This document shows, one piece after another, positions 4,273-57,340 of a stretch of 64,000 nucleotides of DNA. This DNA comes from Beroe forskalii. Lineage: Eukaryota > Ctenophora > Nuda > Beroida > Beroidae. The translations under genes and the position numbers were made by a program. The notes below the pieces were generated by a model. The model did no database searches and had not been told where the DNA came from. It saw nothing but the letters and a program-made list of their open reading frames with translations. The DNA lies in NCBI GenBank assembly GCA_011033025.1, contig WFMF01000228.1, positions 1 through 64,000 on the forward strand, written 5' to 3'. Numbering within the stretch: the stretch's first letter is position 1; the number at the start of each line of letters is the position of its first letter.

Positions 4273-4712
4273 CCATAACACGTTGAAATGCAGATAATTC
4301 AAATTTGGTTTAATGACACAGTCAAACAATTAGATCTCAATCACTGAACAAAAGGGGATGTGAAAAGGGTAAATTTGTGCGGTTATTTGGTCTTATACTC
4401 CAAACAAAGTGTATTATTTCTACCGCTGATGTAAACATCGCAAATGTGGAGTGCAGTGCTATTTGTTACTTTGTCTTACGTCGTCAGACAATAGTTTCAA
4501 CTATATTTTCATCCTCAACAGATTCGATGAAATTTTATTTTTTCGGTGGTTAGGTTTGAAATCTTTATGTGATCTGTGATCATAAACATCAACGACGAAT
4601 AAATTTTAACAGAAAATGGGGCCGAATAAGGCAACATGTTTCTGAGTTACGTCTCTCAGTTTCTCTTTACGTTGTACGTCTTGATAATTCCCTTCTCCTC
4701 AGCAGTGACAGT

Positions 4713-11084: not shown

Positions 11085-11425
11085 AGGGTGGTGGTGTCAA
11101 GAGGGGTATGAAACTGGTGTCAGGGGGAGTATTGACACTGGTGTCAAGAGGGGCTTGACACTGGTGTCAGGAGCGGTATTGACACTGGTGTCAGGGGAGC
11201 ATCATACTGGTGTCAGGAGGTGGATCGACACTGGTGTCAGGAGGGGGCTTGACACTGGTGTCAGGGTGCCTGACACTGGTGCCAGGAGGGGTATTGACAC
11301 TGGTGTCAAGAGGAGGGTTGACAGTGGTGTCAGGGTGCTTGACACTGGTGCCAGGAGATATATTGGATTGACACTGGTGTCAAGAGGGTTATTGACACTG
11401 GTTTCAGAAGGTGCTTGCCACCAGT
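11085..11425. repeat. TGGTGTCA minisatellite, copy B (about 0.33 kb)
   Basis: Homologue of the 1990-3790 array, with about a dozen degenerate units. The size difference from copy A shows large copy-number change since the duplication. It accounts for most of the length difference not explained by the two transposons. Confidence 0.9.
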
Positions 11426-15910: not shown

Positions 15911-16228
15911 AGTCAGCAGAAATCAGAACCAGTACAAGAGTACAAGCACTCAAGCAACGTAGCAAGATACAATTTAACACAAAGAAAGGCATCTGTACGA
16001 TATGTTTCACATTGTCAGGGTCCAGTGACATTTCCTAGAAATTTCTTCTTCCTAGTACACTAGTTAATACAACAGAATTCCATGAATTGGACGAGGCAGT
16101 ACTCTGAAAATCGATTAGTCACAGTAAATTCAATACTTGATCCAGTGCTCTTGTAAGTTCAAGTACAAGGAACCACATTATGTATCAAAAGTGGAAAAAT
16201 TCGTCTATTTTCGTCATAGCTTGGAAAC

Positions 16229-16520: not shown

Positions 16521-17958
16521 GGTGTATTCTAATGAGTTTGTATGACCTATGGCTTTGGTTAAAAGACTATAATAACAATTAAAATGTACCAACCACTTCA
16601 AAACTATCTTTTCAGTTGATTATCCGTCGCTTCCTTAAAATCACAACAAAACTACAATTCCCCTGCAGGAGAGGCCCGCCTTCAAATACAACTTCCTGGA
16701 TCGGAAACCACCGAAAAGGAGGTCGAGCAACCCGCTGAAACAGATAGCTAAAGTGAGGAGACTGCTGAACAAGATCAAGAGAACACGAAAAACGCAGTTG
16801 TTGAAAAATTGAGCATTTAATAACAATCCTAAAGTGATAGCAATTTCACGTAGTTCGTCTCATACATCACTCCAAAACTCTCTTTAATTAACCCTGGTCA
16901 GGTACGGCAACTCTGCGTACGGTATTCTGTATTTCTTCCTGGAAATGTCTAATTACGAGGGGTACGAGAATAGCGTGGACACCTCCCAGCTTGACAGGTG
17001 GAAGTTATATTGAAATATTCTCAATTTAGATTAATTCAGATTAATTCAAATTAATAACTTAATAATGATATATATATTATCAATATATTATCATGCTGTA
17101 ACGATATGTTGAAACAGTTCATAAACTTAAGGTTTTGATCATTTTCACTCCTAGAATTTGAGTACGAACGGACTGGCTGGAGCACCAGAACACATTTACG
17201 GCGACATTATGACATAAACCTTGATTCTTTCATACAATCGAATGAATCTGTCCCCCACTTCCACAACAAATATCATGTATTCTCTCAAACCCTTGCAGCC
17301 TCCCTCCCACTCAAACATAGCCCAATCATCTCCATGCACCCCCTTCAGTCTCTTTGAGCGTGGGGCAGACATCCACGCGACAGACAAAGTAGGACAGACG
17401 ATCCTGCACGATTGTGCCCGGATCCATACTGTGGCAACAGTCCGGTATTTCATCCGATGTGGGGTGGATGTTAACAAGCAGGACATATATGGAAGAACTG
17501 CTCTGCATGTTGCTGCGAAGAAGGACTACGAGGAAATGGTAGGCTTGGATATTTGATTCATGGAATTATAAGGAATTGAGGTTCCTGATCCACAATTGGC
17601 TTCTCTGTCATAATTCCATATTCTGTGCATAGACTTAGGAAGCTTCCAGAATTGATCCTATACAGTAGCCTTCTTAGTTGATTATGAAAGTAGATTCTCC
17701 CATTCCCAGTGGCATAATTTTTTAAAGTGGCTGGGAATGGGAATTTGGTGGTAAATTGGCTTTTTTGACCAATTACTTTCACTGCGATCCCAGTCATACC
17801 TCGAAAAATTTTTTTTGCATGTATCCTGAGTTTGAAATCACAAAACTGCATATTTTTTGCGCAGGCAAATTCTGATTTCATATACAACAAAAATTATTCA
17901 CGGGTGCACGAAATCAATTTCAAAATTTCCTCTCAGCAGCATCCTAAAAGCTCCCTGC

Positions 17959-18425
17959 ACGTTGAGTTGATTTCTAATAAGTGGAGCAGGGGTCTGGGGG
18001 CGGCAGCCCCCAGAAGCCAGACGTTTTCTATAAATAAATTTGCCGCCTCAGTAGGATTTTAACTCTGAATTCTGTCCTGTAAGTTGAGTCGATTGATAAC
18101 ATGTGAAGCAGGGGTCTGGGGGCGGCAGCCCCCAGATGCCAGACGTTTTCTATAAATAAAATTGTCGCATCAATAGGATTTTAACTCTATCTGTCCTGTA
18201 AGTTGAGTCGATTGATAACATGTGAAGCAGGGGTCTGGGGGCGACAGCCCCCAGAAGTCAGACGTTTTCTATGAATAAAATTGTCGCCTCAATAGGACTT
18301 TAACTCTTAGTTCTGTCCTGTAAGTTGAGTCGATTGATAACATGTGGAGCAGGGGTCTGGGGGCGGCAGCCCCCAGAAGCCAGACGTTTTCTATAAATAA
18401 AATTGTCGCCTCAATAGGATTATAT
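17959..18425. repeat. Four-copy 121-bp repeat inside the hAT-type element
   Basis: Units start near 17987, 18108, 18228 and 18349. Each carries the hairpin CTGGGGGCGGCAGCCCCCAG followed by CAGACGTTTTCTAT. The copies differ by a few bases. Confidence 0.9.
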
Positions 18426-19011
18426 AACTCTTATTTCTTTATTTCAGCATAATTTAAGATCAAGGTACCTTAGCAAATGTAATGTAGTTACAATTTCTAC
18501 AGAGATGAAGATTAAATCCAGTAGATTGGGATCTGGGGGCAATTTAATATTATGCATAAAATCGTAATTTTATTCAACGTACAATTTCTATGAATACAAT
18601 TACTATTTTTTAATACAAATGAGATTTGAAACATGCATAATTGAAACATGCATAATTTTCATTTCAGTGCTTAAAACATGCACTTTCATTTTCACAGCTA
18701 CTGACTAGAATCCCTTGATATGGAAAATCGATAAATACAAAAATGCACAATTTTATCTTTAAAAATGCACATTCGTTTCTAAAATAAAGATAAAGCTCAA
18801 GTAATTTTATGCATTTTTTCTTGGGAGTTGGAAATATCTCAAAACTGCATATTTTGAAAAGGATTTTGCATGTATCTAGGATGGCCAGGATTAAGTTTTT
18901 TCGTCGCATGATCCCAGTAGTCAAAATTTTTGCTCGGGAACATAGCATAACCTTCAATGTGTTCAGTAAGTTCAAAACACGCTATGAAATAAGATTTTTC
19001 GATAATTTTCA

Positions 19012-19085
19012 AAAAGTGCGCCAGCGGGGTTGGAACTCGGGTCAACTGTGGGCTACGCAGGAGGTATAACCATTGCGCCACCACC
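19012..19085 (-). repeat. tRNA-like (SINE-type) segment
   Basis: On the minus strand a box A-like TGGCGCAATGG is followed about 35 bases on by a box B-like GAGTTCCAACCCC, then TTTTT. The layout matches a decayed tRNA-derived promoter. It is not a functional tRNA by eye. Confidence 0.45.
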
Positions 19086-22000
19086 AGATGGTGTGGAAAA
19101 AATTTTACACTATTTATTCATAACTCATCAAGCTATGTGTGATATGCTTAAAATGACTCTTCAAACCTTTTCAGGAATCTTTTACGCAGGATAAAGTGTA
19201 TTGAGTGTGTGAGAGTGTGTTTTAAGCAGCCTGGGAGCAAAAGTCATGAATCATGGCATGTACAGGGTGTTCAAAATCTATCTAGTATGAAGAATCATAT
19301 TACACAATGTATTGCACACTATCTGCCACTCTAAATCTGTCTTCCATAGTTTAAACCATGCTAAAGATTTGGTAAACCATGAAAGCATTTATTTAAAGTT
19401 CTTAGTAAGCAGGGTCTTCGACCCATGGCAAAAAACCTTTTCCATTTCCTTGAACTGCCCAAATTTTAGACTGGCATATTAAAAAAAGTCACAAAAAGTC
19501 TGCCCACACCTTCTAAATCGTTAAAACAGCCGGGAAGTTTATCATATGTCGGGAATTTTAGGAATCTGTAGATTCCCCAAACCAGCCACTACATTCCCCA
19601 ACCAGCCGGCTGGGCTGGGAATTTAATGGCTGGTTCGGGAAGCGCGCTCCGCTTAATTGGAAATTAAGCAAAAGGCTGCTCCTTTATAAAATCATTTTTT
19701 CGAAGTCGATGAGACACAGATGAGACACAGATTTTACAGTGCGCGCGTGAAATCGAACAGCCACTCTCAGTGAAAAAAATATTTAATTCAATTTTCCGTG
19801 AATTTGGCTTTTTGAGTCCGATTTCACAGATTCTGTCCCAAAATTTGGCTGGGCTTGCCATTCCCTCATTCCCTACATTATGCCACTGGGCTCCCATTTA
19901 TAAAGCACTACATAGAACTATGATCCCAGGTAGAACTTCTGATAGAAAATGGAGCTAAGACAGACCTAACCACCCATGGCTCGTGCTTCACTGCCCTCCA
20001 CTGGGCAGCCATGGGTAACGCATCTGATGCTATCCATGTTCTGGTGAAGTATGGGGCTGACAAGGAACCTGTGGACTACAGGGGCAGAACTCCCCTGTTA
20101 ATTGCTGCTGAGTATGATAGGTAGGTGAGACACCGGACAGGTTCAATTTTCACAGTATTTGTACGATGAATCATGCAGCTACTGCCAATAGAAAATGCCA
20201 TCTTTATTCATTCTCTATGGTTTACTTCCCAGTACAGCAAATTACCTAACATTTCGACAGGAAGGCTGCAGCACAGAAGCTGATAGAAGTGGGTGTCACA
20301 GCACGTGTGGTTGACTACACAGGGCTTCATGCCCTCTCACTCCTCATTGCAAAAATGCCTAAACTAGCAGCACAAGCCTTGGATCAGTTCTTCTCCATCA
20401 ACAAGAAATCACGGGAACTCAAAGTCTGGATCAACTCAATGGAACCTGATCTGCTGGTTCCCAAAGATGCCCGTTATGGATTTAGTGTCCTGGATGAAGT
20501 TTCAAAGAGTGGTGATAGTGAGCTCGTCCAAAACCCTGCCATAAAGGCCCTGATTTCCACAAAGTGGAAACAGTTCGGGCAACGAGCAGTAATCAAAGAC
20601 ATCTCCCTTTATCTCATCTATCTTATTTCATGGAGCATCCTTATGATTCTGACCCCTTTGTACCCTCCTGAAAACGATACTACATTTGCAGAATCAAGAG
20701 GTTCTAGACGACTCATCACTGAAACAGTGGCATACATACTGTACATTGGCTTTGTATTGGATGAGATTAGTGAGCTGAGGCATGGGATGGTTCAACAAAA
20801 AAGATGGAAGAATATGAGGATCGGACAAGTTCAGAGTGATTTGAAGATAATTCGACCTCTATCGGAGATGGAAAAACAGTTTCTGAACAGTGAAATGGAG
20901 AAATCTACCAAAGAAAAGTCTCAATATGGAAAAGATTCTTGGAATTACTTTGATTGGACAGTTTACATTCTACAACTTGTTGGAATTTGCACCTACATCT
21001 ACTGTGAAATTGCATGCATTAACATGGACTTGAGTAATGAGGAGGTCAGGAAATCATACCACAAGATCTTCCGAATAAGATCACAACTGATGGCAGTTGC
21101 AATTTTGCTGTCATGGTTCAAAGTTTTCAAGTATCTTCGTGTTTTCAAGTCAATGGGCCCTTTTGTTGTCATCATTACTCACAGCTTTGGAGATGTTGGA
21201 AAGATAGCAATTGTTTACTTGCTCCTTTACATTCCAATGGTCTGCATATTCTATCAGGTAATTGGGGTTGAAATAACAATGAAGCTTACAAAAAAGTACA
21301 GAAGTTGTTTACACAAATTCGAAGACTTTGGTTCTGTCATTTATTATCAAATTTAACTTCAGGAATCACCAAAACCATGTTTCGTTGTAATATAATGGAT
21401 TACAATAGTTAGTTTGAACCTTGACTATTCTCTGTATATTTCCTTCTGAAATGCAAATGGACAACTTTCCTGGAAATCTTCTAACAACATTCCTCTCCAG
21501 TTTTATCAAGGGGTTAATGGATATGAAGATGTAGGAAGCACCATGTTTACTGTATTCCGGATGATTGTTGTTGATGACTACAACTATGACAGTCTGGTGG
21601 AAACTAGTAGGCCACTTGAAGAAGATTTGGATGATGAAGGTGTCATGGTAAAAAGAAGACGGGGTAGTAAAGGGGGTGGTGGAGGTATGTATAATGTATG
21701 AGTTGTACAACATATGTATTTTATTTATGTCAATAATATGGATGCAAATTCCATGCTGAGGGCCGACATCAAGCCAATCATAATTCATAAAGACAGTTAA
21801 TACTTAATTGAAAGTGAATATTAATGTAGCATGTGTCGAAAATTTCACATGATGATATTCTCCCACTGCCCAGGAGCAAGTGACACTAACACCGACCGTC
21901 CTGATGTTATAGTGGACCTATGGTGGACAAGATTTCTTGTTGCTTATTGGATCCTTGTTTCCAGTGTTATCCTTCTTAACTTGTTCATTGCTTTGATGTC

Positions 22001-22744
22001 AGATACCTTCCAAAGAGTGTATGACAATGCAGTTGGAGTAGCTGCTCTTGAAAAGGCAGAGATAGTGTCTGAATTGGAAGTGAAGCTAACAAAAAGTCTC
22101 GAGATCGGTATTTGAAAGACCTTGAAGACAACTACTCTCCTCTTGTGGAATTTATGGAAAAAGATGAAGGTGACTGACACAACAAGTGAAGAAACCACAA
22201 GTTAGAGAATGTACAAGCAAGGATAGAACAGTAGAACGCCTCATAGTTGCACTGGATGAAGAACAGCAGCAAAGATCAAAAGAAATACGAGAAGAAAACA
22301 TTCAGCTGTTTACATTGCTGGAGTCTAAAATAGATTCAATGGGCATCCAGACATATATGGCAGATGACATATGAAAGGCAGCATATTTTATTGGTTGTAA
22401 ACTGTAACTGACAAATTATTGGCCTGATCAATTTATTAATCGAATGTAAACACGAGGATACGATTCATGATTGATATTTGTGATACATGATAGTGATCAT
22501 GCACCTGGGACCACATCACACATATTACTTTTTTTCAATACAGATGATAACTTTCGAACAAAATTTTCATCAAAGTAAATTTTCTGCAGTTGTGATGTAA
22601 AGCAATTTATTGTAGATCACAGATTCGTTTTTGCATGCATGATTGATGTGATCTAAGAAAATCAAGATTGATAGAAAAGGTTTTTTCTATAACAGAAATG
22701 TCCCAAAAATTTTGCTGCCTACTAAACTTTGTTATGGTTCTTAC

Positions 22745-31858: not shown

Positions 31859-34800
31859 ATGACAAAAATTCTTTTATGTCTCTTAATCTTCTCATTCTTG
31901 TAAGTACCCTGATTTTGATTTGAGTAAAACTGTGATTAGATAAATTTTGAATTGATTGATTTTCCACTAGTAAAGATTCTACACCCCTCAAGATGGCAAG
32001 GAATTAGATTTTACTTATATGATTGAAACCTAGACATTTCATTCATAGTTTCTTCCAAAATTAAACTCCCGTTCAGATCATTGATACGATCACAAGATAC
32101 AGATTCAGCGCCTCAAGACTCCTCACAACCCGAAAGTGAAAAAGAGACCGAAACAAAAGCGGATACTCCGGAAACCGAAAGCGAAACTAAATCCGAGGAA
32201 AGTAACGAAAGTGCTGATGAAGATGATGGGGTTCCCGAAGAGAAGAAGGTACCTTACGAGACGTATTTTTCATTTTTGTGGAACGAAATTATGGGTATAG
32301 GACACTACGGCACCGGACTCTAGGGCACTGGACCCTACGGCACACCACAGGACTCGTGGGCACACTTTTCAGTTTTGGGGGGACGTCATCAATCACCTGC
32401 GGCATACAATTAAAGTACCACTAATTAAAGGAATATCTCCTATTAACAAAACCCCTGATCATTACCCAATGATAAGCAAATATAGGCCAGATGGAAGTTC
32501 ACCATGATGGTTTCAGGATATTATTGTCAGGACACCCAATTTAAAGGGTGGGGTCAAGTATCCTTGTGGGTGACAATGTACTAATGTAGAGACAAGGAGG
32601 AGACCCAGGAGGGAAGACCCAGGAGTTGGGGTTTGGGATTTGGCATGTGTTTTCAGACTTGAAGAAGAGTTGAGGACAGGAAGCAAAGGTTCCGTCAATG
32701 TACCAGCTCAAGCTCTCCTCCAGGATGTCAAGGTTACTGTTGGCCAGGATGATGACCCGCTTCTTCTCGTCGTTGTTGTCGAATTTCAGCATCAGGTCAC
32801 CAGCTCCTCAAGGCAGGTGGGGCTCTAGGACAAGGTTCCTCTTCCGCCCGATGCTTTGAGCTCTCTTCTTGGTAGCCTCCTCACTAGGAAGTCTTGCCCT
32901 GGTGTCCTGCGAGATTGAGCCAGTGGAGTAGTGCATGAGGTAGGGTGGGTGTGGGTGTTCAGAATATGTTTGCAATATTGGAGAAGACCTCACGCAGCTC
33001 ACAGTCAGCAAGGTCTAGCTCGTGGCATTGAGGCTGGTTAAAGACGTCATTCCCCTAGTGTCCAGAGCCTAGATTGGGGCGGTCGTTCTTCTTCACGCAC
33101 CTCCAATGTCTTCCATCCAGATAGCGGAATCCAAGATGAAGAAGATTCTGAAAAAAGCCGATGAGTCCCTGAACGGATATGAGGTCAAAATCAGTATCTA
33201 CCGCATGTTATTTATCTCTAATCCTAATAAGGTCAGCTAACAAGCAGTATCTCCCGTATGTTCTGATCTCTGATGAGAGGTATCTGTCGTTTTAGTAGGG
33301 ACAAATGTCCCTACTACATTCTTAACTGCAACCGTGTCTTAGAGTGTGCCTTAGAGTCCAAAAACCAAAGTGTGCCGCAACAAACTGAAAAAAGAGTCCT
33401 GTGCCGTAGTGTCCTGTGCCGTAGGGTCCAGTGCCCTAGAGTCCTGTGCCGTAGTGTCCGAACCCCGAAATTATGGGGATTGAAGTATCAGGGGGTTCAA
33501 AAATTTGGGACAATAATAACATTATTGCCCATGCTATAAGAATATTCTTCGTAAGGTGGACCAAGTGACGAAGGACCTGGAGGAGGCAGCACTAAATGAT
33601 CTGGATGACTTGGAGTCGTACCTGCTGGAGATCATAGTGGTTCCGGAGGAGGGAGACGAGGAGAAGATAGCTGACAAACCCGTGGAGTACGACAAGTGGA
33701 CTGCCATGTGAGTACGGAGAGGGGACTGCCATGTGAGTACGACAAGTGGACTGCCATGTGAGTACGGCAAGTGGAATGCCAAGTGCAAAGGTGAAAATCG
33801 GGCAAGAAGGGATTTAAGGATCGGCAAGGCGTGGCATAGGAATTGTCAGGTAGAGTCCACGACTAGGGGACGGTCAGAAATTATTCTTTCGTCAGCATGT
33901 CTTTCCATCAAATCCCGTTGATAGAGAAAGTTCCCCCAGGATGGAAGAGAAGCTGAAAAAGGCGTACGAAATGGCGAGTTTGGAAAGCGGCGGAAAGACC
34001 AAACAAGAACCCGTGGTCAAGGTAATCATATGAACAGTAAGGAGGCATGTTTAGCGGTTCTTAATAATAAAGTTGACATTTAGCATTGGCGTGTTCTAGA
34101 AGTATCTTAAAGAGACAAATGAAAAGAGACAAATCAAACCTCCCACAGATAGTCAAAACAGACCTTATCAAAGAGGAAGAAAGCAACAGTGTCAAACTTC
34201 TCTTCTATGTGAGACAACCTCCTGAAGGGCCAGTGCCAGGTTTGTTTTTAAGGCATAAGGGATCTTTCCCATGTTACGTTGCCAATTTTCAGACCCTTTT
34301 GAATTTAAACCCTCCACCCAATCAATGTCTAAACCAATATGGACCCAATCAGGCAAGTTTCTTTGTATTATCGACACCGATGAAAATTCGTGAGATGGTT
34401 CTTAAGTCCACAAACACTGCACAGGTATCCAAGTAGAGGCCCTGTACAAGACACTATCAGATAGTGAGTTGTGGGACTTCACCGAAAGGCAGACGCTGGG
34501 GTTTCCCACAGCAGTGAAGCAGGCTCAGGACACCAGCGGGGCCTCCAGGACCATCTCCATCATTGCTTTCGTCCTTGGATGGGTGAGATTGTGTTTGATT
34601 GGAACCCACGGTGGGGTACCCATAACTTCAAATAGTCTATTCTTTTCAAAGAGTTACGGAAATTTTCAGTTTTTCACCTAGGCCATCGGTATCTTTTTCA
34701 ACTTTGCTAAATGATAGGTCACTAAAATAACTTCTGGAAGAATTTATACTAGTTTCCTTCCATTTCAGGTCTGCTTATCTGCTTTGATTGTTATCTTGGC

Positions 34801-36148
34801 GTATCTTGGAATAAAATACAGAGATGGACTGAAATCGCTGGCTCAACGAATCCAAGACTGGTCTAATGTCTATGTAAGTTGGAATCTGTTTCAAAACAAG
34901 TTTCATTTCTTGTAAAACTAAAGTTGTATAGTGCTTACATGATTTACTTCGCAATGGCTCTATGTTATCAGTTAACTTATATTCCACTCAGCCTAACAGA
35001 ACTGGTTATTCTAATCTGGGTGGTGAGAAGTGCATGTCAATGAAGACTGGAGGTCACCAGTCGTTGCAGAAGGTTAGATTCAGATAATCCTATAACCATT
35101 ATTCCGTCAAAAAATGCCAGAAAAAAGAAAAGGGACCGTTATCAGCAATTTCAGACTGATTCTGATTTTTCGAAGTCGCGACACTTGTGATACAATAATT
35201 TAGCCCCACATAAATATTTCTCCTTATGTGCCTCTCCCCAGACGAGTTGGATCAAGACGTGGAAAGTAAGCCTCTGCCTAAGAAGAAACTCCGGGCTCCA
35301 GGGGGTCTACTTCACGAGATGGAAGAGGGGGAGACCATCTCACCCCAGACACAGAACTACAACTCCTACGGGGGCACTGCAGACGGGGGTGCAGCAGCAG
35401 GAGGAGGGGGACCAGGGGGACTGGAGATGCAGATCAAGGTATGTGTGTCAACTCAAAACGTACTTTTAATCTATTTGACCTTCAACAGTTCTTTCCTGAT
35501 ACACCTCACCCTCTCCCAAGGTTTGTTTGATTTAGGGGTGGGGTTCGAATGACGCTCATAATATCATGTTCTACTCTCGTAGGATTCTACACAGCTGAGA
35601 CTGTCGGAGTTGACTAATTTGGATGAGACTGGAGGTGACTACAACATGGGAGGAAACGTCACCCCTCCTCTGACACCCAAGTCAATGCAGAAACACCTGA
35701 TAAAGAAGTACCAAGAAAAAACAGGTGACAGTAGAGACTATAACCTTACTCTCTTGATACAGGAAAAAGTTACATTCATTTAATTTTTTGTAATCCCTGC
35801 AGTCAGGTATTTAGATTGTGTCAAAAATAAAATAAGTTAATAATCATCATTTTACTCACTCAAAAGACCTAAAGATAGCCTTAATCTTATGGAGATAAAA
35901 GACATGTTCGCCCCCGCATTGCTGTTCGCCCCTTTCTGGCAGTATATAAAACTTCAGTACGCCGCGCAAACTTAAGCCGCCCAAACTGCAGTTCAAACTG
36001 TCACCAATTTTTCCATATTTTCCAGGTGGAGGAGCAATCCCGTGTGCTGGTGAATGACGAACCTCTGACGGCCTCCAACTCCGAAGTCTTCCCGGAGGAC
36101 TTCGCGGACTGCGTTGAGGAGGAAGAAATCTTCCAAGTGAAACCTTGA
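31859..36148 (+). CDS. Signal-peptide, single-span membrane protein; possibly the N-terminal part of the NIT cyclase
   Basis: Predicted exons: 31859-31899, 32077-32248, 33121-33183 (or to 33231), 33541-33707, 33940-34021, 34439-34582, 34769-34873, 34992-35072, 35247-35438, 35583-35724, 36026-36148. MTKILLCLLIFSFL begins a signal peptide. A Glu/Asp/Ser/Thr-rich stretch, charged helices (KMKKILKKADESL, EEKLKKAYEMASLES) and one membrane span (about residues 213-239, IAFVLGWVCLSALIVILAYL) follow. The rest is a cytoplasmic tail with a Gly-rich run. Exons down to 35724 join in phase; the step to 36026 does not (phase 1 into phase 0). A 14-base microexon at 35943-35956 would repair it. The last exon either stops at TGA 36146-36148 or splices at 36137 (GTGAAA) to 38385. 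Start of exon 9 (35247 or 35242) is uncertain. I do not recognise the family. Confidence 0.6.
32300..33459 (-). mobile_element. MULE-type transposon remnant bounded by inverted repeats
   Basis: About 45 bases at 32300-32345 (GGACACTACGGCAC.., CTCTAGGGCACTGGACCC) recur in reverse complement at 33414-33459, and a further direct copy of the tip lies at about 33400-33416. Between them the minus strand holds a MULE-like transposase fragment. Predicted exon 3 of the membrane-protein gene (33121-33183) also lies between the repeats. Confidence 0.6.
32541..32792 (-). pseudogene. Fragment of a MULE-family transposase
   Basis: Minus-strand frame with RVIILANSNLDILEES and SWYIDGTFASCPQLFF, matching the start of the MULE domain (typically a line ending W(F/Y)xDGTF, whose Asp is the first catalytic residue). 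The upstream part (about 32808-33011, QSIGRKRNLVLEPHLP) is in another frame, so the copy is frameshifted, and everything after the first catalytic region is missing. Confidence 0.6.
33697..33780 (+). repeat. Splice-donor segment repeated in tandem
   Basis: The exon end and donor, ACTGCCAT|GTGAGTACG at 33700-33716, are followed by further copies at about 33724-33740 and 33750-33766, and a looser fourth at 33775. Each copy carries a full GTGAGT donor. Use of a later donor would add 24-50 bases. Confidence 0.85.
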
Positions 36149-36251
36149 GGGTTTAGGAGCAGGTACACGGAGATACACGTGTATATTAGGATGTGTTGTA
36201 ATTTTAAAGCAGAACTTATGAGAGTAAAAGAAAATCAATTTCAGTAAAAGT

Positions 36252-36383
36252 CAACGGTGGTGAGTCGAAATCTACATGCGCGGCTTTTCCATGCGCGGCG
36301 TAATTCTGCGAATCTGCGCGGCTCACTGCCTGTTACTAACAGCATTGGGCCGCGCATGAGAAAGCCGCGCACGTAGGAATTCG
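36252..36383. repeat. CG-rich foldback downstream of exon 36026
   Basis: The arm TCGAAATCTACATGCGCGGC..CATGCGCGGC faces GCCGCGCATG..GCCGCGCACGTAGGAATTCGA, with a spacer of about 55 bases. MITE-like. Confidence 0.8.
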
Positions 36384-38384
36384 ACACGACACTGCAAAAG
36401 ACGATTAAGAAGAGTACAATGATAGTTGAAAACGTCAAACCTTCAAAGTAGTTATTACTATTATTTCGCTATTTGACCATGTTGATCATGAATTTCAAGT
36501 CTGAAGAGTATTAAAAATCTAATATGATTCATTCGAATTATATAACTGCAACTTTAGGTTTATAATTTTGATTATGGTTCTATAACACCATTGTAAATTG
36601 TTTATTATTTATTTACTTGAACTTACCAATCATTTATTTAGTTTTATTCAATTAATAATTTATCTGATTTTTTCCTGATTGAATCATTTTAGCATTTTTG
36701 TCCGGAGCGTCCGGAGAAATTGATATTTTCAAGTGTTGTAACAATAAGTTGATCTCATAATAATTTCATCTAAAAAATTTAAACAAATATTTATTTCGAG
36801 TTTCACTATGATAGTATTGATGAAAAACTTTTGAAAGCGAATTAATTGGGGTGCATATACTATCAGCTAATCAGAAAATCGAAAAAGATATTATCATGAA
36901 AAATGGAGAAAGCCATGAAAATTCATTTTATTTTTTGAATTGGCTATTTATGTAAATTGTTAATTGATTAATATGATACATATTTGATGTATATTATATG
37001 TGAAATACAATATATGATACATTTTTGATTATTATACCTTTATAAATTTCCGATTAACTTTATTTCTGCCATATCTTTAAATGGACCAACAAAAAGAGGC
37101 GATTTCATAAATGTGGGCCAAGTACAAACCTACTTTGCAGTATAAGGTAGGCTCTTTCAGTTAATTATACTGGGAAAAATAATATGCAAAATGGCCAACA
37201 ACGAAAATATCAATGGTAATTCGGCCACTTTTTGTTGACTAAAGAACCCACAGATAAGAAAAATAACTAACAATATGATCTAGGTTAAAACTAATTAATA
37301 TATTAATATTAATAAAACTGCTTAAAGTTGAAATTCAATAAAGATGAAATTGCAGAGGCGGTACTTTTCTGTCAAAAGCTTGTAGTATATCACATGCGCC
37401 ACATATTATAGTGGCGCAAATGCGGCGCCCGCAAAATATGCGCCTGGGCACGTCACCAATTCACCATTCAAAACCATGATAACGACATAACAACCACCCG
37501 CGAACTTTTCATGTGCATCATTTCGACATCTATATAAATATAAATATAGAGTACGTGCGTCGAGCAATATTGCAATTTAATAAAAGCTTGACACTGGAGC
37601 CACCATACGCTACTCTGCGAGAAACCATCTTATTTTATTGGGATTTTATTCTGTCACCCCGCGTTATATTGCACACGGCGGTATTACTACTGGTACTACT
37701 CAGACGGCCATTTTGCAATTTAACTCGAAGTTCCGGAGGTGTTTCGCTCCGTCCTTCAAATCCTTCTCTCTCGCACCAAATACACAGTTTTAATTTATAG
37801 TACACATTTATCTTGTGATCTATATACATCGTTATCTACATATTCGAAGAAAGATAAGACACGTGTATTGTATATCTCGGGATATACATATAACTATCTT
37901 CCCACACTCGAGTTGTGGTGAAGGTGTCTGAGTGACGATCTCATTTGGAGTACGTGTCCCGGAGCCGAGTAAAACATCATTTCCAGGCGCTCTTCCCTTT
38001 CTCAGCGACTTGCTGAGTATTTGGTAGGTTCCAATGATAGGGTACATTGATTGCAGTCTAAAATAGTCTAAAAACAGACCAAAACAGTCTAAAAACAGAC
38101 TTGCTTAGTATTTGGTAGGTTCCAATGATAGGGTACATTGATTTCAGTCTAAAAAAGTCTAAAATAGTCTAAAAACAGCCCAAAACAGTCTTAAAACAGA
38201 TTTGCTGAGTATTTGCAGTAGGTTCCAATGATAGGGTACATTGATTGCAGTCTAAAAACCGACCTAAGACAGTCTAAAAACAGTCTAAAATATTCTAAAA
38301 ACAGCCCAAAACAGTCCAATGGATCAACTTCTGTCATTTGACCAGCGACTGCTAAATTCCTGTTTAATTCCTGTTTTATAATAG
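36384..38384. other. AT-rich gap between the two receptor exon blocks
   Basis: About 2.0 kb with no exon I can support and no start codon that would begin the NIT cyclase. 36430-37360 is strongly AT-rich. A GTCACCAATTCACCATT repeat fragment lies at 37452, and the tandem repeat at 38015-38310 ends just before the next exon. It could be a long intron or an intergenic space. Confidence 0.45.
38015..38310 (+). repeat. Tandem repeat upstream of cyclase exon 1
   Basis: Three units of about 90-115 bases, each with TTGCTGAGTATTTG, TTCCAATGATAGGGTACATT and CAGTCTAAAA runs. Each unit contains an acceptor-like ATTG(A/C)AG|TCTAAAA. Confidence 0.85.
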
Positions 38385-41300
38385 ACCAAGTACTCGCAGG
38401 GAATCCACAAACTGTACCGGTCACGTAGAAAGATTCTCCCGAAAAGGAAGGGAGGGAAACGGAACCGCAAAAACTCTTCCACCTCGTCGAGTCTTAGCAT
38501 CGCCGCAGGTGAAAATATGCCCTCACTAAATTAGTTTTTAAATTTTAGTCTCTTATCTTCTCTTATGATGAATATCTTTTCACGTCTCGAACTGTGCAAC
38601 CACCTCGACTTCGTCTCGAAGGCATCAGCACAGCTCTCAAACTGAGAACTTGAGAATGTATTAATTTATCATAACCAACCCATCTTCAGGCTCGGTCAAC
38701 TCATGGGACAAAATACAGAATGACTTCAACGACATCGTCGACAGCGTTGTCAAAGATGACAAAGGCCTGGAGTACAAGACGAAGAGTCGGAACATCATCG
38801 TTTGCATCATCATTCCTATTCTAGCAGTGGTGTGCTACTCCTGCTACCATATCTACCAGGGCAACACGTCACATGGACAGAGCAAAGCAAACCACAACCT
38901 GGTGGGGAGTAGCCAACAGGTACAGTGTTTAAGGAATACTAATAGTAGTAGGTAGTGGTCGGCGGATGGCATTGAGTGGTGAAGCCATGAGATGACTTCA
39001 GCCGATCGATAATCATAATTTTAATTTCCATCTATCCTTGCCCCTGCAATCGTGGTTTTTCCGGTAGAGGACGCTCTAGCCAGGAGTGCAGAGGCAAGAA
39101 TAGGGACTGTTGGATACTTGGATATACTATATAGTCAGCTGCAGCAACGAAGTTTTTCAATTAAGCCAGAGCCCAAGAGAAATTGGAAAAATTTTCATCA
39201 ACCAGCGAATAGGGGTGCACATACTTATATTGTTATCACAAATCGGTGAAACTTGACAGGAATTAAATTCACACCTTCCTTCTGCAGTTCTCAAAAGCGG
39301 TAGAAAGCCTGAATGCTGAGATGTTGTGGACCATGATGTACATCTACGGAAGCTTGGATTACCCGGCCGTAGTAGTCAGTGATTTGAGGATCAAGAGTAA
39401 TCAGTCGTTAGGTAAGTGCCGTCGTGGTCGAGTACCCAGTCGTAAGGTGAGTCACTAGGTAACCACTAACCAGTCAGTGTCACTAGGTTACCATTCATTC
39501 AGTTATTATACTAGGTAACCAGTCACTGGGTAAGTGCCGTTGTGATCGGCGATTCAAGGATCAACAGCAACCAGTCATTAGGTGAGTTACTAGCCACTAG
39601 GAAAGCAGGCACTAGGTGAGTTACAAGGAAACAGTCTCAAGGTGAGTAAATAGGAAACCAGTGACCAGTCACAAGGTAACCAGTCCCTAGATAAGTTACT
39701 AGACAACACAGATGCAGCAACAATATAGGGTGTACGACGTTTGATCCCACATTTCATCTCAGGACACTAATTCATCCCTCCTTCCTGACCCTAAGACGTA
39801 ACTCTAACCCTCAAGCTATCCTGCTATCCATGTCCCTAACATTAATTGCTCAGAGATATGATATCACGAGATAAAGTGTCGTGAGATCAATGTCCGTTCC
39901 CCACGAAATTAAGTGTCGTGAAATCAATGTCCATTCTCCATGACCCTCCTTCCCCTCCTCAGCCCTGATATCCTCGTGGCCGGACACGCTGGAAACTAAC
40001 TACGCGGACATCTCCGAGTTTATCAGCGATCTGGAGCACCTCCGAGGGAAGATAGACGCTCAGCAGCTCAGAGCTGACGAGGCCTTCAAAGCGTACCACA
40101 CGATGATCAAGATAATCTACGAGGGGGTCATCCAGTCCCTCCAGGGAGGCTCCTTCTCTCTCGTGTGGAATACTCTGGTGAGTCATCCGTCGTAACACCG
40201 CAATCCAGCCCCTCTCATCACTCAGCACGTCAGCACATCGCACCCTCTCACATCATACCCTCTCATTGCACTATCTGACTTCTAAATCATAGTCTCAGCA
40301 ACCGAACCAACAGTACTCTGGTGAGAGCAGAGCCTGCGCCAAATCGCACAAAAAATCGTAATACCCTCTCAATTTGAGAGATCTGCAGATGAAGGCGAGA
40401 CGAAGTCGAGGCGTTTGCACAGCTCGTGTGGAATGCTCTGGTACAACTTTACAAGAAACTCAATAATATATTTTACATTACTTTTAACCTTCCTACAAAT
40501 ATTTATTTTTCAGGTTACGTACGAGACGATCATCTTCAGCAGATACCAGCTGTTTTTGATTGAAAGCGTGGGGGTGATGTACTTCATGAACGGCACCATC
40601 TCGGACGACATACATTCCTTGTTCATAGGCGCTTTGAAGGTTCATTTCTTATTTCAAAAGTTCAATTTAATACTTATCTGATCTCTTTCCTCATCAAACA
40701 ACTTAATTCAGTACTCAATCATCCAATATCCAGAAAATCTGGTACCAAAAAAGGCCCAAAACACAAATAACTGAATATTTCGTCAAAATAAATCCTACTT
40801 TTAGGGACTTGAGGTTTTTAGTAGTGTTATTCCTAACACTAGAAAATACGACAGAAGGGAAATAACATTTCAGCTACACGATTATTCGCTACAATTCTCT
40901 CAAATCTACGGTGGTGATACCATTCGATCGAAGATATACCAATCCCTCTTCAAATACAGGTACATGAAACTGAATTCATTATGTTGATCGAAATTTGATT
41001 AATTTCTTTTTTTCTGTCAACATTTTATCTACTCACGTACTCTGATTGATAATCATTTTTTTTATATTCGATTGTTTGTTAGTTTCCAAAACACCTAACT
41101 CGCTTTTCAGTGGTGACTTGAGGACCCTTCTAAAGCAAATCAGAAGTAATGCACCGGTTGAGCAGTCACACAAAATAGCCCTCTTCTGGATAAACATAGG
41201 AATGTCATACGATGAGGTGAGAAGGAGATTTTTGATTTCTTTTTTCTACCACCGACTGTAAGTGTATACTTGCTTTCAAATATACTAACTTCATTCTAAA

Positions 41301-44300
41301 CCAATCTAAAGGCTAAACCAATTGATGAAATATCAGTCACACATCTTATGGGTACTGATTTCCAAAACTCACGTCTCAGCATATCAAAGCAATCCAAGAT
41401 GCCGTTGCGGAGACGGTCAACGAGAAAATGATGAGTCTGATCAACAAAGCGATCCTGTACCAGTACGCTACTGAGGTGGTCCTGATCATCCTCTGTCTGG
41501 TGTTGTCAGTGTTCGCAGTTATTGACATCAGGAAGATTAAGCAGATTTACCTGTATCTCAAGGTAATAACTGAAGGCTATTCTAGCGTGAACTTTGCTCA
41601 TTCATAATTAAAACGGAAGACAGAAAGCAATGAGCATTTGTATAGTCAAAATATTACCAACAGAATAAAATATTCCCTGAAATTTTAGGCAAATTCTAAA
41701 TCTCTGAGAATGAATGAAGAATTCTCATTTAGTCAATAATTTTTTTCTCGTTCCTTCAGTCTCAAAGTGAACGGAACAAAGCCACGATGAAGGTTTTGAA
41801 GATGCAGAAAGACAAGTCAGAAGCCCTTCTGTTCCGGATGCTGCCCTACTGCGTGGTCAAGGAAATGAGGAGGTCTGACAGACGTGATCTAAAACCTATA
41901 ATAATCATGTCTATTATTCTAATGGTCGAAAGTATGTTCCCTTTTGACTAAAATTCTAATTGGCAGAAATTGGCAGAACTCTCTTAATGTGGTATACTTC
42001 CTCAATATAACAGGCAAATTTCCTTGTCTTAATCACACACATCTCCAACTCCACGTGCTAGCCCCCTCCAACCCACCCTCTAACCCCACTCCTAACCACA
42101 CCTATTTCTAACCCCTCCATCCCTCTTCTTACCACATCGTCCCTCTTCTAACCCCGCCATCCCTCTTGTAACCCAACTCCCTCTTCTTACCCCACCCTCC
42201 TCCGAGTTAGCTTCCCTCACCCAGGTGCAGGGAAGATATATAGGGGCATATTGAGTTGGGCAGCTACCAAAGTGTACTGTGTTTTATAGATGACAAATTT
42301 AACTTCCAGGTAGGATATAATCGTCCAATCGAGGCTATCAATCGAGTTACCGGTTTTTAACACACGGGGCAGAGCCGAGTGTTATAAGTTCCTAATAATG
42401 CCACGAGCAATTATCAAGGTTTGATCTTTCAGCGACTAGCAGCAAGGGATATGAGCCCGTTTGCTTACGTGCGGTTCCTAGAGGCTTTCTACATGAGGAT
42501 TGCAGAGGTGCTCGAGTCTCACAAGGTAACAACAGTTCAATCGTTGAACAAAGTAGGTTATTTTGGACTGATCATTCGAAAATCTGGAAATAGTTCACCT
42601 TTCTAAAGTAACTTATGGTACTAAATTTAGGTATGGTACCGATCAGTTTCAAAGTTTTCAACACGCTGACAAGTAACAAGGTGTGAACCCTTCATATGAC
42701 AATGCTTTTTTATGACTCATATTTGAAATTCCTATAGAAATTCCTTGTTATGTCACTCACTGCAACTCACCCACCAAGGTAAACGAGATCGAGACAGCTG
42801 CTGGAGAATGTCTCGTTGTGAGTGGGTTACCTGACCGGAGCAGCACCAGCAAGCATTGCTCTGAGGTGGGTCACGGCGGGTGATGACTAATTATCTGGAC
42901 AATTCAATACTAAGAGTTGGCTATGATTTTAAGATTTTTTCTAGGACCTTTCAAGCTTGTAGACTAAGAATAAAACTCCCTGATCTATATTATAACTCCC
43001 CCTTGATCCCCTGTTCAAATTTTAGATAACTTAACTTGGGCACAATCCCCGTTCTAACTTGATCCCCAATCCAGATGTTAGATAACTCCCCCTCAATCCC
43101 CGTTCTAACTTGCTCCCCTGTTCAGATGTTAGATAACTCCCCCACCCCCGTATTAACTTGATCCCCTTTTCAGATGTTTGATTCAATCCTCCTTTTAAGT
43201 TTTTAACTTGATCCTCTGTTCAGATAGCCCACACTGCCCTGGGACTCCGGAGCGTCATGTGCAGGGGTCTACAGCTCGGTGTTCACGGAGACTTCGTCTG
43301 TTTCCGGCTCATTCAGGGCATTGCTTCAGGTCATATATTCAAAACACAAAGCATTGATTCAGGTTTTATTTCAAAGCACAAAGCATTAGATTTCAGGTTA
43401 TATTTCAATGCACTTAGCATTGCTTCATGCTATATTTCAAAGCACAAAGCATTAGATATTAAATTTCAGTTTATTGACAATGAACCTCCTCGCAGGCCCC
43501 TGTGCCGCTGGTATCATAGGTGTCAAACTACCGAGATTCTGCGTATTTGGGGACACTGTCAACACAGCAGCCAGGATGAAATCCACTTGCTTGGGTAAGA
43601 GACGGGTGGGATATCAAATATGAATTAAATGCCGCGCGCGAAAAAATATGCGGTTATTTTTCCACAATTTGGCAGCTTGCACAGTGTTAATGACGTCATT
43701 GCGACCGCCTATTTATATTCTGAGCAATGAGCATATTATTAGTGCGAAAAATAATGAAATTTCAGTTTGATTGATTCATTGATCAACATTTGTCGCAGGA
43801 ATGAGGATTCAGATCACAGACATCTGCAGCATTATCTTGGAAGAAGGATTCGTGGTGACTAAGCGAGGAACTATATTTGTAAAAGTAAGACCATGAATAT
43901 CTCAAGGTTGACAAGCGTTAGAGTGAACGATTCAGATTATAGTGGTGTCACGGTTGAATGGCGTCTAGGATAACTGATGTAAAAGGTGACAGGTGTCAAG
44001 GTTGACTGGTGTCAAGGTTGACTGGTGTCAAGGTTGACTGGTGTCAAGGTTGACTGGTGTCAAGGTTGACTGGTGTCAAGGTTGACTGGTGTCAAGGTTG
44101 ACTGATGTCAAGGTTGACTGATGTCAAGGTTGACTGATGTCAAGGTTAAATGGTGCCAAGCCTATGATTGCAAGTGTCAAGGTTAACTGGTGCCTTGGTC
44201 AACTGGTCTCAAGGTTATGTCTACGTTATTACTGGTGTCAAGGTTAACTGGTGCCAAAGCTGAATGGTGTCATGGTAAACTAATGTCAAGGTTAACTGGT

Positions 44301-44571
44301 GTCAAGGTGAACTGGTGCCAAGGTTTTCTGGTGTCAGGTTGAAGTCTAAGTTTAATGGTGTCAAGGTTGACTGGTGTCAGTGAAATTAACGGGTATAGTG
44401 GATTTTACTCTACCACAATCAAACTTAATTTGTTCAATCAAACTGATTTTTTTTAATTTTCAGGGAAAGGGTGAAATGGAGACACATTGGCTGATCTCAG
44501 AACGAAACAGCAATCACGACTACGACGAAATACCTCGGCATGCTGGCAACAGCAACCAGAAAAAATCATGA
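38385..44571 (+). CDS. NIT-domain receptor guanylate cyclase (catalytically atypical)
   Basis: Fifteen exons: 38385-38508, 38690-38919, 39288-39411, 39963-40177, 40514-40639, 40874-40959, 41111-41216, 41380-41562, 41760-41924, 42433-42525, 42779-42865, 43224-43329, 43496-43594, 43799-43884, 44464-44571; 1938 nt, 645 aa, 5' end incomplete. Order: basic leader, TM1 (about 76-97), NIT-type ectodomain (about 118-365, helical, two-bundle style), TM2 (369-387), linker [14 protein letters not shown], class III cyclase domain (about 430-630; [39 protein letters not shown]). NIT domains sense nitrate/nitrite-like ligands; such receptors make cGMP. Guanylate-type residues E489 and C564 and the catalytic N571 and R575 are kept. 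Both metal Asp positions are changed (I450 and G493). Exon 9 ends at a weak donor (GTCGAA, in phase); the stronger GTATGT at 41932 is out of phase. No ATG before the NIT domain, so the start lies upstream, perhaps at 31859. Confidence 0.8.
39380..39720 (+). repeat. Decoy donor array in the third cyclase intron
   Basis: The exon 3 end GATCAAGAGTAATCAGTCGTTAG|GTAAGTGCCGT recurs as GATCAACAGCAACCAGTC..TTAG|GTGAGT near 39560. Around and after it lie about ten shorter units of CCAGTCACTAGGTAA or CTAGGTGAGT type, many of them good GT(A/G)AGT donors. Confidence 0.85.
40160..40445 (+). repeat. Repeated exon-end/donor segment in the fourth cyclase intron
   Basis: TCGTGTGGAATACTCTG|GTGAGT at the true exon end (40161-40183) recurs as AGTACTCTG|GTGAGAG near 40313 and as CTCGTGTGGAATGCTCTG|GTAC near 40424. 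Confidence 0.75.
42985..43223 (+). repeat. Acceptor-like tandem repeat ending at the true acceptor
   Basis: About five units of TAACTTGATCCCCTGTTCAG followed by ATGTTAGATAACTCCCCC. The last one, CTTGATCCTCTGTTCAG, is the real acceptor of exon 43224-43329. Each unit is a polypyrimidine tract plus AG. Confidence 0.85.
43312..43480 (+). repeat. Exon-end/donor segment repeated into the intron
   Basis: The true junction GGCATTGCTTCAG|GTCATAT is followed by three more units of GCATT..TTCA(G/T)G..TATTTCAAAGCACAAA at about 43350, 43386 and 43418, period about 33. Two keep CAG|GTTTTAT or CAG|GTTATAT. Confidence 0.85.
43984..44385 (+). repeat. CTGGTGTCAAGGTTGA minisatellite in the last cyclase intron
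   Basis: A 16-bp unit, regular from about 44004 to 44150 and degenerate beyond. It shares the TGGTGTCA core with the arrays at 1990, 11085 and 57041. Confidence 0.95.
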
Positions 44572-46797: not shown

Positions 46798-47831
46798 GTA
46801 TTTAGATGTCAAATATAAGTAGACAGTACAAATAAAACCTTCATAGCAACAGTATTGTATTAGATTTGCTTCCGATTTTAAAGAAAATTGTCATGAAATT
46901 ATGCGAACCTATATCTTTACTGACTTCTACCCTGAAATTTCTGCGTTCGTCCTGTTTAATATTATGGTTAACTCTACCTGACCACCATGATTCATGAGCA
47001 ATCAGAGAAATCGTTAAATTGGATTTACTTTGATCTTAAATAAGTTTATAATCGTCTTGGTTCTGTCCACTAAGCTTAAATCGAACCCCTGTGATAAATG
47101 GAAGTTTAAAATGAAACGTACCTACTACAGCTTTAATTTCTCAAAGTCTGTGATATATTTTGATACTAATTTCGAGAAATATTTATGCTGGATAATAATT
47201 TTGGGGAAGGAAATTTTGAGGATGAAAATTTTGGGGGTTCGAAAATATGGGATTTTTTCAATATTTCGTAAGATGATGACGTCATATTTAATTTAACGGG
47301 TTGCGAAAATATAGGGATTTTAGCTTCTGAAAGAAAGTCAGTGATATTTTCATCAGTTTCACTCCCTAGCTTTCATTTCATTGAAAAATTTAATATATTT
47401 CATTTCCGGTGTCGTTACGGTCCAGACACTACGTCTTTGACACGTGGGGTATGTGACTCTTAACCTGGCAGTGCCTAGACTTGCACTTACCGCGAAATAA
47501 AGGTGCGGTTTGGAGACATATTATTATTACCAGATCACTTACATACTAAGAAACTGTCGGTATTCTCCCTATATTGTAGGAAAATTATGACAATTTTCTC
47601 ATTGATATGAAAACTGTGCGGATGCTGTCGAGATGAAGTCGAAGCGGTTGCACAGCACGAAAAGTGAGAAGGTATTTATTCTCGTTCCATTTTGTGGTCA
47701 AATAATGGTATGAGAACTTGAAGTATGGTGTATAAGGGTGCCCTGCGTCATATTATCAAGACGACCTGCGAAAAGAATACGCATATTTTTTTGCAGTTTT
47801 TCTATAATTCAGTGATTTCATTATTTTGGCG

Positions 47832-55092: not shown

Positions 55093-57040
55093 CCTAACTT
55101 TCGCCATATTTATATTTAAGTAATTCAGTCAAAAGTCATTCACATTTTTACTCACTACGTTTGTTCCCTTCGTTTTATTCCCCTTACGCCCTACAATGAT
55201 ATATGATAGCGGTACACAGCACTGCAGCTGTACTGTGGTTTTTAGATTGAAATAAAAATGTAGAAATCGAAAAGTTGGATCTGGTAGATTTACATTATTA
55301 ATTGAAATCTATTAAATCAAACTTTCTAATTCCTATGGATGACTCCTTATCATTTTCGATGTCCACAGTCCAATATTAATCAAAAAGCGAAGTTGGAACA
55401 TCATATCATATTCAGGAACGTAATCATTGGACCAGAACTTCGTCATTTTAATTATATTCCCATATATTTGATATTTTACCTGCAATTCCCGCAGTTTATA
55501 TCGATGCTATTTAATGTTGTTTGTTGTTGTTATTTGTAATAATTAGACATGTGAAACGATGCCCAATTTTCTTATTTTTCTTCTGAAAATTATTTTCTTC
55601 TCTTTTTCTGTTTGTTGATGCTCAATGCTCCTTTAATAAGCCTCTGGCTCAGTTCATCTTTTTTACGAATCGCCGCATTATTGATGGTTGCTATTGAAAC
55701 ATAAGATGAGGACTTATGACATATTGGGGCAAGTGTTCCAAATATAACAAATATTCCCTCTGAGCGCATATTATGTAGAAAATGTAACGCCGACACCCAG
55801 CATACCAAACAATAGCAGGCTGGTCGGGATCCAGCCACAATCCTGTTATGGGTGTTCCCACGCAGGGAAACTTATCATAAGTCAGCAACTCACTATTCTA
55901 AGCAGTGATAATGACGTTGCTCCCTACAGTTTATATCACGGAGACTGACCAGTGCCCCTTTTTATCAGAAAAGGGTGTGCCGTCTGATCTATGACGTGTT
56001 CAGAGCTCACTGCATCATTTATTGCATGTGGTTGTGTGCAACTAACGTTATGCTCACTTAGGTTCTCTGAAGTCAATTTGTTTCTCAACAGAGCTAATAA
56101 TTTGAGTTATCATACTCAAGTCAAAAAAGTGACGTAAGTTAAAACTGCAAATTAGCGATTATAGCTTTAGCATTAAATCAGTTTTGCCTAAAGTTCCGTT
56201 TCAGAATGGACCCCCTGAGAACATATTGAGGACCCCCCCCCCCCCCTTGCGTACAGCGTACGAAACATGACCAACTCGATGAATTATAAAACCCTGAGAG
56301 TGAAGTGATCATTTGGCTTGGATTGGTTAAATCGCAAGGACCGCTTCAACTGAAACCACTTGGAATTGTCAAACCGTTTCATGGAACGGTTAAACTGCTA
56401 ACCTTTCACGCCAGTATTTAGTGCGGTATGAGGAAGTTGAATATATTGAGCTGACCATGTTTTAAAACCCAGCATTATAAATCTTGTTTAATCCTCTCTC
56501 CCATTACATTTTCAGTGGTGTGTACGTGCGTACATTTTAAAGAGGTTCGATCGAGTGAACCCATGCCTTATATAATGAGTCTAGAGAATTCTTGCTCTAC
56601 ATTTTACGGGGAATATTATTATATTATGACCTTTTTCCGTTTTAAGAATCTGTGGTCACGTAATGTCAATAGTTTGGTTTACATGTTAAGCTACTTAACA
56701 TATATAAATTGCTTCATTCAACGCTGTTTTATTGAAATTTTCGATTTTTTGATTATTTTAGAGCCTATGAGTGGCAGGATAAACTCATAAATTTGTGTTT
56801 TAGAGATCAACGATTTTTCCAACCCTTTTTTCAATAGATATACTCAGAAATGAGCCCAGAGAGTTTAATTCACCTTTCACGATAATTTGTTTTTTTGCAA
56901 TATGTAGCAGCAGGACTAAGTAAGTTTGAAGTGTTAATTAGCTGTAAGAGACACTTCTACAAATCCTACTTTCCGGATGTAAACACATTACGATATATCC
57001 CGATTTATCTGAAAAAAACAATGAACAGATTGAACTGCGG

Positions 57041-57340
57041 TTTCAGAGAGAAGTGGTGTCAGAGTGAAGAGGTGTCAGTGAGACCAGTGTCAGAGAAAAG
57101 TGGTGTCAGGGTGAAGTGGTGTCAGGATGAAGTGGTTACAGAGTGAAGTGGTGTCAGATTGAAGTGGTGTCAGAGAGAGCAGTGTCAGTGAGAGAAGTGT
57201 CAGAGAGAAGTGGTGTCAGGGCGGAGTGATGTCAGTGAGAAGTGGTGTCAGTGAGACCAGTGTCTGAGGGACCGGTGTCAGAGATGCCGGTGTCAGTGAG
57301 AAGTGGTGTCAGGGTGAAGTGGTGCCGGAGTGGTGTCGGC
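57041..57340. repeat. GTGGTGTCAGAGAGA minisatellite
   Basis: A 14-17 bp unit of GTGGTGTCAGAGTGAA type, about 18 degenerate copies. The fourth array in the window with a GGTGTCA core. Confidence 0.9.

Follow-up and report, generated by a model that had tools for sequence, protein, structure and literature searches.

At several exon edges of the ctenophore Beroe forskalii the end of the exon and its GT donor are repeated in the following intron, forming series of decoy splice sites, almost all of which would damage the reading frame if used. In the junctions sampled, repeats of this kind are found at a rate near that of other non-coding DNA. The near-background rates, in DNA that is rich in tandem repeats, support ordinary local tandem duplication, which most probably explains the arrays; the junction cases would have been tolerated, with the outermost splice site still in use. 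The window referred to below is the 64,000-nucleotide stretch that was analysed (contig WFMF01000228.1, positions 1 to 64,000; here contig C279) from an assembly of 216 Mb in 1134 contigs.

Exon-edge copies in the window and on other contigs

The predicted cyclase-like gene of the window (Table 1) was identified by its matches to PF08376 (E 2.9e-8, 34.8 bits against a cut-off of 24.9) and PF00211 (E 7.9e-32, 110.8 bits against a cut-off of 21.9); a NIT domain and a class III cyclase domain are thereby combined in one protein, as in a NIT-receptor guanylate cyclase. Gene names beyond the Pfam matches were read from translations. The metal-binding aspartate of the SDIVGFT motif appears to be missing from the cyclase domain at 41760-42525, and judging from its sequence this cyclase may be catalytically dead. 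A separate, non-cyclase gene lies upstream, with a predicted model that finishes at the stop codon 36146-36148; the repeats near 33.7 kb, which an earlier note on this DNA had assigned to the receptor-cyclase gene, belong to this upstream gene.

For each junction, the 22-mers spanning it were compared with its own intron and with 300 block shuffles of that intron. At four donors and at acceptor 43224 the best intron copy was never equalled by the shuffles. The best copies were 22/22 for the donor after 33707 (3 copies of at least 15/22), 18/22 for 39411 (4 copies), 16/22 for 40177 (1 copy), 16/22 for 43329 (2 copies) and 20/22 for acceptor 43224 (4 copies). When exons were aligned to introns, the exon tail 33685-33707 had a 23/23 intron copy, and one copy in the 39411 case could be aligned across 46 exon bases. 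The claim that exon end and GT recur after four exons of the window thus holds for all four donors, but the near-tandem series described at 40161-40445 consists of one strong copy 250 bp off, a weaker one and a dispersed repeat. The repetition of a polypyrimidine-AG acceptor up to the true acceptor was borne out at 43224, where what recurs is the tract on the intron side, with no more than one or two exon bases, and where TRF reports an array (43043-43182, 51 bp x 2.8) among the copies. A weaker case after the exon at 33121 does not rise above chance at the junction: its best junction copy (12/22) was equalled by 223 of the 300 shuffles, and the CAGTATCT copies begin within the intron, not at the junction.

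Table 1. Features of the window discussed in the text (window positions).
Feature	Position	Strand	Basis
NIT-domain receptor guanylate-cyclase-like gene, ~15 exons predicted	38385..44571	+	PF08376, PF00211
Exon of upstream non-cyclase gene, with its end inside the array's first unit; GT of the donor at 33708	33556..33707	+	gene model
Tandem array, 25 bp x 4.0; unit is the last 23 exon bases and GT	33685..33785	+	TRF, 22-mer test
Cyclase exon, tail and donor repeated downstream	39288..39411	+	gene model, alignment
Degenerate near-tandem copies of exon tail and donor (39433, 39516, 39568, 39677)	39433..39698	+	22-mer test
Cyclase exon, last 18 bases repeated once (17/18)	39963..40177	+	gene model, alignment
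Short dispersed repeat adjoining the distal exon-tail copy, ~66 bp	40359..40425	+	own-genome matches, core copies
Distal copy of the 40177 exon tail and GT	40427..40448	+	22-mer test
Four polypyrimidine-AG acceptor tract copies upstream of acceptor 43224	42998..43174	+	22-mer test
Cyclase exon, acceptor repeated upstream and donor repeated downstream	43224..43329	+	gene model
Array, 32 bp x 4.2, exonic in its first 12 bases	43318..43453	+	TRF

TRF arrays span two of these junctions (33685-33785 and 43318-43453). Both consist of head-to-tail units, as expected of a minisatellite (units of about 10-100 bp), as do the arrays of L005 and L006 described below; this is not so at 40177, and at 39411 it is so only in part (TRF 39599-39658 only).

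Cases were found on six contigs (C279, C142, C248, C209, C954 and C218). In a pair of cyclase paralogues on C142, L005 and L006, a 34-bp unit comprising the last 20 exon and first 14 intron bases is present 38 times (in two blocks) and 25 times respectively, and at the next acceptor of both there is a 52-bp unit containing the first 18 exon bases. The minisatellite of L005 is broken at 4625-6230 by ~1.6 kb with many CCCACTTTACCCC-like motifs; the L006 array is continuous. In L016 (C248) the unit is formed by 41 bases of a NEK-like kinase exon plus GTAAG, and an open exon of L019 (C209) carries a 43-bp unit. Seven kinase loci, L008-L014, were picked from a list of hits with their sequence still unseen; exon-end copies occur at a donor of L014 and at two acceptors of L011, and an exon-to-intron alignment of at least 15 is present at 3 of their 78 junctions. 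An array that starts in the exon and bears a donor in its units, the feature of an IFI6-type splice-donor minisatellite, is found after 33707 and 43329, in L005/L006, in L016 and in L019.

In L011, 11-mers recur once per 50-bp unit: TAATCTCTCCC at 3119 (intron) and TAATCCCTCCC at 3169, 3219 and 3269 (exon). These near-identical 11-mers of the intron tract and the exon are the likely seed of the duplication. An origin of the L011 copies from elsewhere in the genome was considered and discarded, as a search of the own genome matched the L011 locus alone.

Other repeats and genes were observed alongside these. Minisatellites with GGTGTCA-type units of 16-24 bp occur at four window sites (2012-3761, 11092-11411, 43943-44379 and 57039-57324), one of them within a cyclase intron, and units resembling these are also present in L023 (contig C179). 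Two near-identical copies of an ion-channel-like gene with ankyrin, TRP-like from translation, lie at 4700-9080 and 16670-22115, with the last exon of the second copy predicted to terminate early relative to the first, and two long open frames (346 and 409 codons) lie at 13298-15922 (-). Contig C1134 (13,339 bp) is mitochondrion-like, with a cox1 containing four in-frame TGA codons; over the 10,000 bases read its GC content is 17.4% and ARAGORN found no tRNA.

Effect of the decoy sites on the reading frame

The series of decoy splice sites proposed in the earlier note are present, and by PWM the decoy donors often score equal to the true donor; L005 has 37 decoy donors of the same predicted strength and L006 has 24. 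The consequence of using each decoy was examined for 84 decoy donors from nine arrays, L016 being covered in its first part only. Use of 83 of the 84 would cause a frameshift, introduce a stop codon or both: 54 would do both, 25 would give an in-frame stop, 4 a frameshift and 1 neither. With the first donor or last acceptor the expected protein reading is retained, as in the motifs after 43329 (10 protein letters) and in L011 (NPSRRTSAEEAL). Therefore, given the damage that the decoys would do, a duplication crossing the border would be expected to survive only where splicing continues at the original outer site.

Repeat frequency at exon edges and the origin of the arrays

The gene models are predictions of a home-made finder trained on the window, made without RNA evidence. 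From 127 predicted exons, 32 that on visual inspection were too short or too weak, or lay in repeats, were removed (including exon 2606 of L013 and a cyclase exon predicted at 39503, within the decoy series) and 3 were restored with hand-set ends, giving a sample of 85 donors and 95 acceptors. Outside the window the sample comprises ~71 kb of nuclear DNA, in stretches whose selection was not based on repeats; L004, being the opening 10 kb of the window, is not independent. The near-duplicates L005/L006 and TRP1/TRP2 were counted separately in the TRF, copy, alignment and exon-interior tests. The search for copies was restricted to introns, and the copies are thus intron-side by design.

It is clear that exon ends match their own introns beyond chance. 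Alignments of at least 15 were found at 12 of 180 junctions and in none of 720 null introns, for which each intron was shuffled three times and reverse-complemented once. Ten of the 12 best alignments end at most 2 bases from the junction; the exceptions, 14 and 11 bases off, are two L015 junctions with doubtful exon models. Donor 43329 and acceptor 43224 do not reach this threshold. Within the window 3 of 74 junctions had such an alignment, and beyond it 9 of 106, four of these nine coming from the L005/L006 pair and two from the doubtful L015 exons. Likewise, exon-edge 18-mers matching at 15/18 or better were found at 5/85 donors against 0/420 exon-interior controls and at 4/95 acceptors against 3/470.

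The non-coding DNA is itself rich in tandem repeats, TRF arrays (score of at least 40) covering 9.9% of the window and 10-24% of the three 10-kb stretches L005-L007. When other non-coding positions were taken as the control, the sampled exon edges were not clearly preferred. The first unit of a TRF array lay at 3/85 donors (3.5%) against 2.85% of control positions, and the last unit at 4/95 acceptors against 2.7% (63,142 control positions, with a 6-base margin that excludes the 33708 case). Copies of the exon end of at least 15/16 were present for 5/85 donors and 2/95 acceptors; among 9,580 and 9,535 random non-coding positions the edge-matched rate was 2.3% for both, and the rate at any position 6.6% (donor) and 5.7% (acceptor). 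The donor rate thus lies between the two controls and exceeds the edge-matched one ~2.5-fold, with a one-sided P of 0.047 that is uncorrected and includes the non-independent L005/L006 pair and the pre-selected window; acceptors show no excess. In the cyclase gene alone, 3/14 donors have copies of at least 13/16 (P 0.011 edge-matched, 0.16 any). A comparison of donors at intron edges with intron interiors (5/85 against 44/486) was not side-matched and was superseded by the edge-matched count.

Motif pairs counted genome-wide contradict each other. Tandem CAGGTAAGT pairs number 254 against 20 in the reversed control (singles 1734 against 1365), whereas tandem AAGGTGAGT pairs are far fewer than in the reversed control, 217 against 1077. 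The CAGGTAAGT pairs are concentrated in few long arrays, three clusters (C122, C248) holding 77 of the 100 pairs listed out of 254. A piece of 350-600 bases was examined for each of 11 listed clusters; the array starts in an exon-like frame in 2 of the 11, and in a third (L022) the frame is open owing only to a short repeat.

Ordinary duplication would run as follows. Local tandem duplication would act throughout non-coding DNA, driven presumably by replication slippage or unequal exchange, and sometimes between short direct repeats such as the L011 11-mers. Occasionally the duplicated segment would span an exon-intron border. This would be tolerated through continued use of the 5'-most donor or 3'-most acceptor, the extra units becoming decoys on the intron side. 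Certain arrays may later have grown into minisatellites of tens of units. The presence of the same array in L005 and L006 at differing copy number also supports this origin. The donor excess over the edge-matched control, the cyclase count, the CAGGTAAGT excess and the proportion of aligned junctions outside the window as against within it count against it.

For 40161-40445 a mobile-element insertion with target-site duplication, in place of a tandem repeat, is possible although doubtful. Here the 18-base direct repeat (17/18) flanks a stretch whose end is the dispersed repeat. Of the 36 own-genome matches listed for 40161-40445, one is the window interval itself; 32 of the remaining 35 map to this 3' part, one of the 32 being inside the window. 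The core of the repeat has three window copies, at 38592-38615 (-) and at 40399-40422 and 47632-47655 (+). However, the dispersed part is only ~66 bp long and does not fill the ~245 bp between the exon-tail copies.

That a junction-specific process, for example template switching coupled to transcription or splicing, builds arrays anchored at splice sites is improbable. The tandem CAGGTAAGT pairs, the mild donor excess and the recurrence of exon tail and donor in arrays or repeats across several gene families would be consistent with it, but the opposite behaviour of AAGGTGAGT, the few exon-like starts among the CAGGTAAGT clusters, the near-background TRF rates and the absence of an acceptor excess argue otherwise. 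The shared junction-anchored process suggested in the earlier note is accordingly unsupported by TRF edge units, edge-matched copies or motif pairs: within the power of the sample, junction repeats were no commoner than repeats placed elsewhere, and an above-chance rate genome-wide was not confirmed. It is likewise improbable that minisatellites arising at donors by a junction-tied process form a class of their own across the genome, with ladders in many genes of up to tens of equal donors of which the first alone would be spliced.

Alternatively, the decoy arrays could be functional, for example as splice-site reservoirs or splicing regulators, with selection or exchange with the exon maintaining their units; we consider this very improbable. 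In the 63 units of L005/L006 the exon part varies mainly at two synonymous sites (29 synonymous against 5 non-synonymous cells), the 7-base donor block is almost invariant while the 7 spacer bases vary, and the three changes between the L011 copies and their exon are all synonymous. Over 11 arrays, however, the events are 16 synonymous and 17 non-synonymous, a total that omits both arrays of L006, the duplicate of L005, which would add 3 and 6 respectively. The synonymous share exceeds the decoy-only neutral value of 0.28 (P 0.01) but is near the 0.44 expected if the exon itself gains synonymous changes (P 0.35), and the 33708, 40177 and 43329 copies have non-synonymous changes only. Selection or exon-array exchange is therefore unneeded when synonymous changes in the exon itself are taken into account. 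Finally, extra units produced by mis-assembly of haplotypes or repeats are extremely unlikely, even though a ctenophore genome is described as highly heterozygous in passages of PMC8527503, since the units are not identical to each other, two paralogues share an array at different copy number and the cases are spread over six contigs.

Relation to known systems

These observations suggest that, in an animal genome rich in repeats, exon borders are no barrier to tandem duplication on the intron side. The strings of equal-scoring donors provide a natural experiment in donor choice, and such ladders bear on the standing question in exon definition of how the first donor gets chosen. Annotators of this genome should be cautious, as exon tails are repeated in its introns.

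The tandem-repeat load is comparable to that of another ctenophore, Hormiphora californensis, where TRF arrays make up 13% of the assembly according to passages of PMC8527503, passages in which junction repeats are unmentioned.

A survey of junction-straddling arrays was not found in the literature searched, which is weak evidence as subscription papers were mostly outside its scope. The minisatellite of human IFI6 reportedly lies at an exon border (Turri et al. 1995 are said to have described it). This minisatellite of IFI6 (6-16) contains multiple splice donors, as given in passages of PMC4526556, and is a precedent for the present arrays; the remark in the earlier note that no named class of junction-anchored minisatellites is known does fit the literature searched. 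In both systems repeat units downstream of an exon bring further splice donors. Two downstream units are reported as used donors in IFI6, whereas most decoys here are predicted to break the frame, and several genes are affected here. In the RdRp gene of potato, a tandem duplication across an intron-exon boundary is described in passages of PMC4974935; there, as here, a splice junction is spanned by a tandem duplication, but in potato one duplication gave a new intron, whereas the copies in Beroe lie within an existing one.
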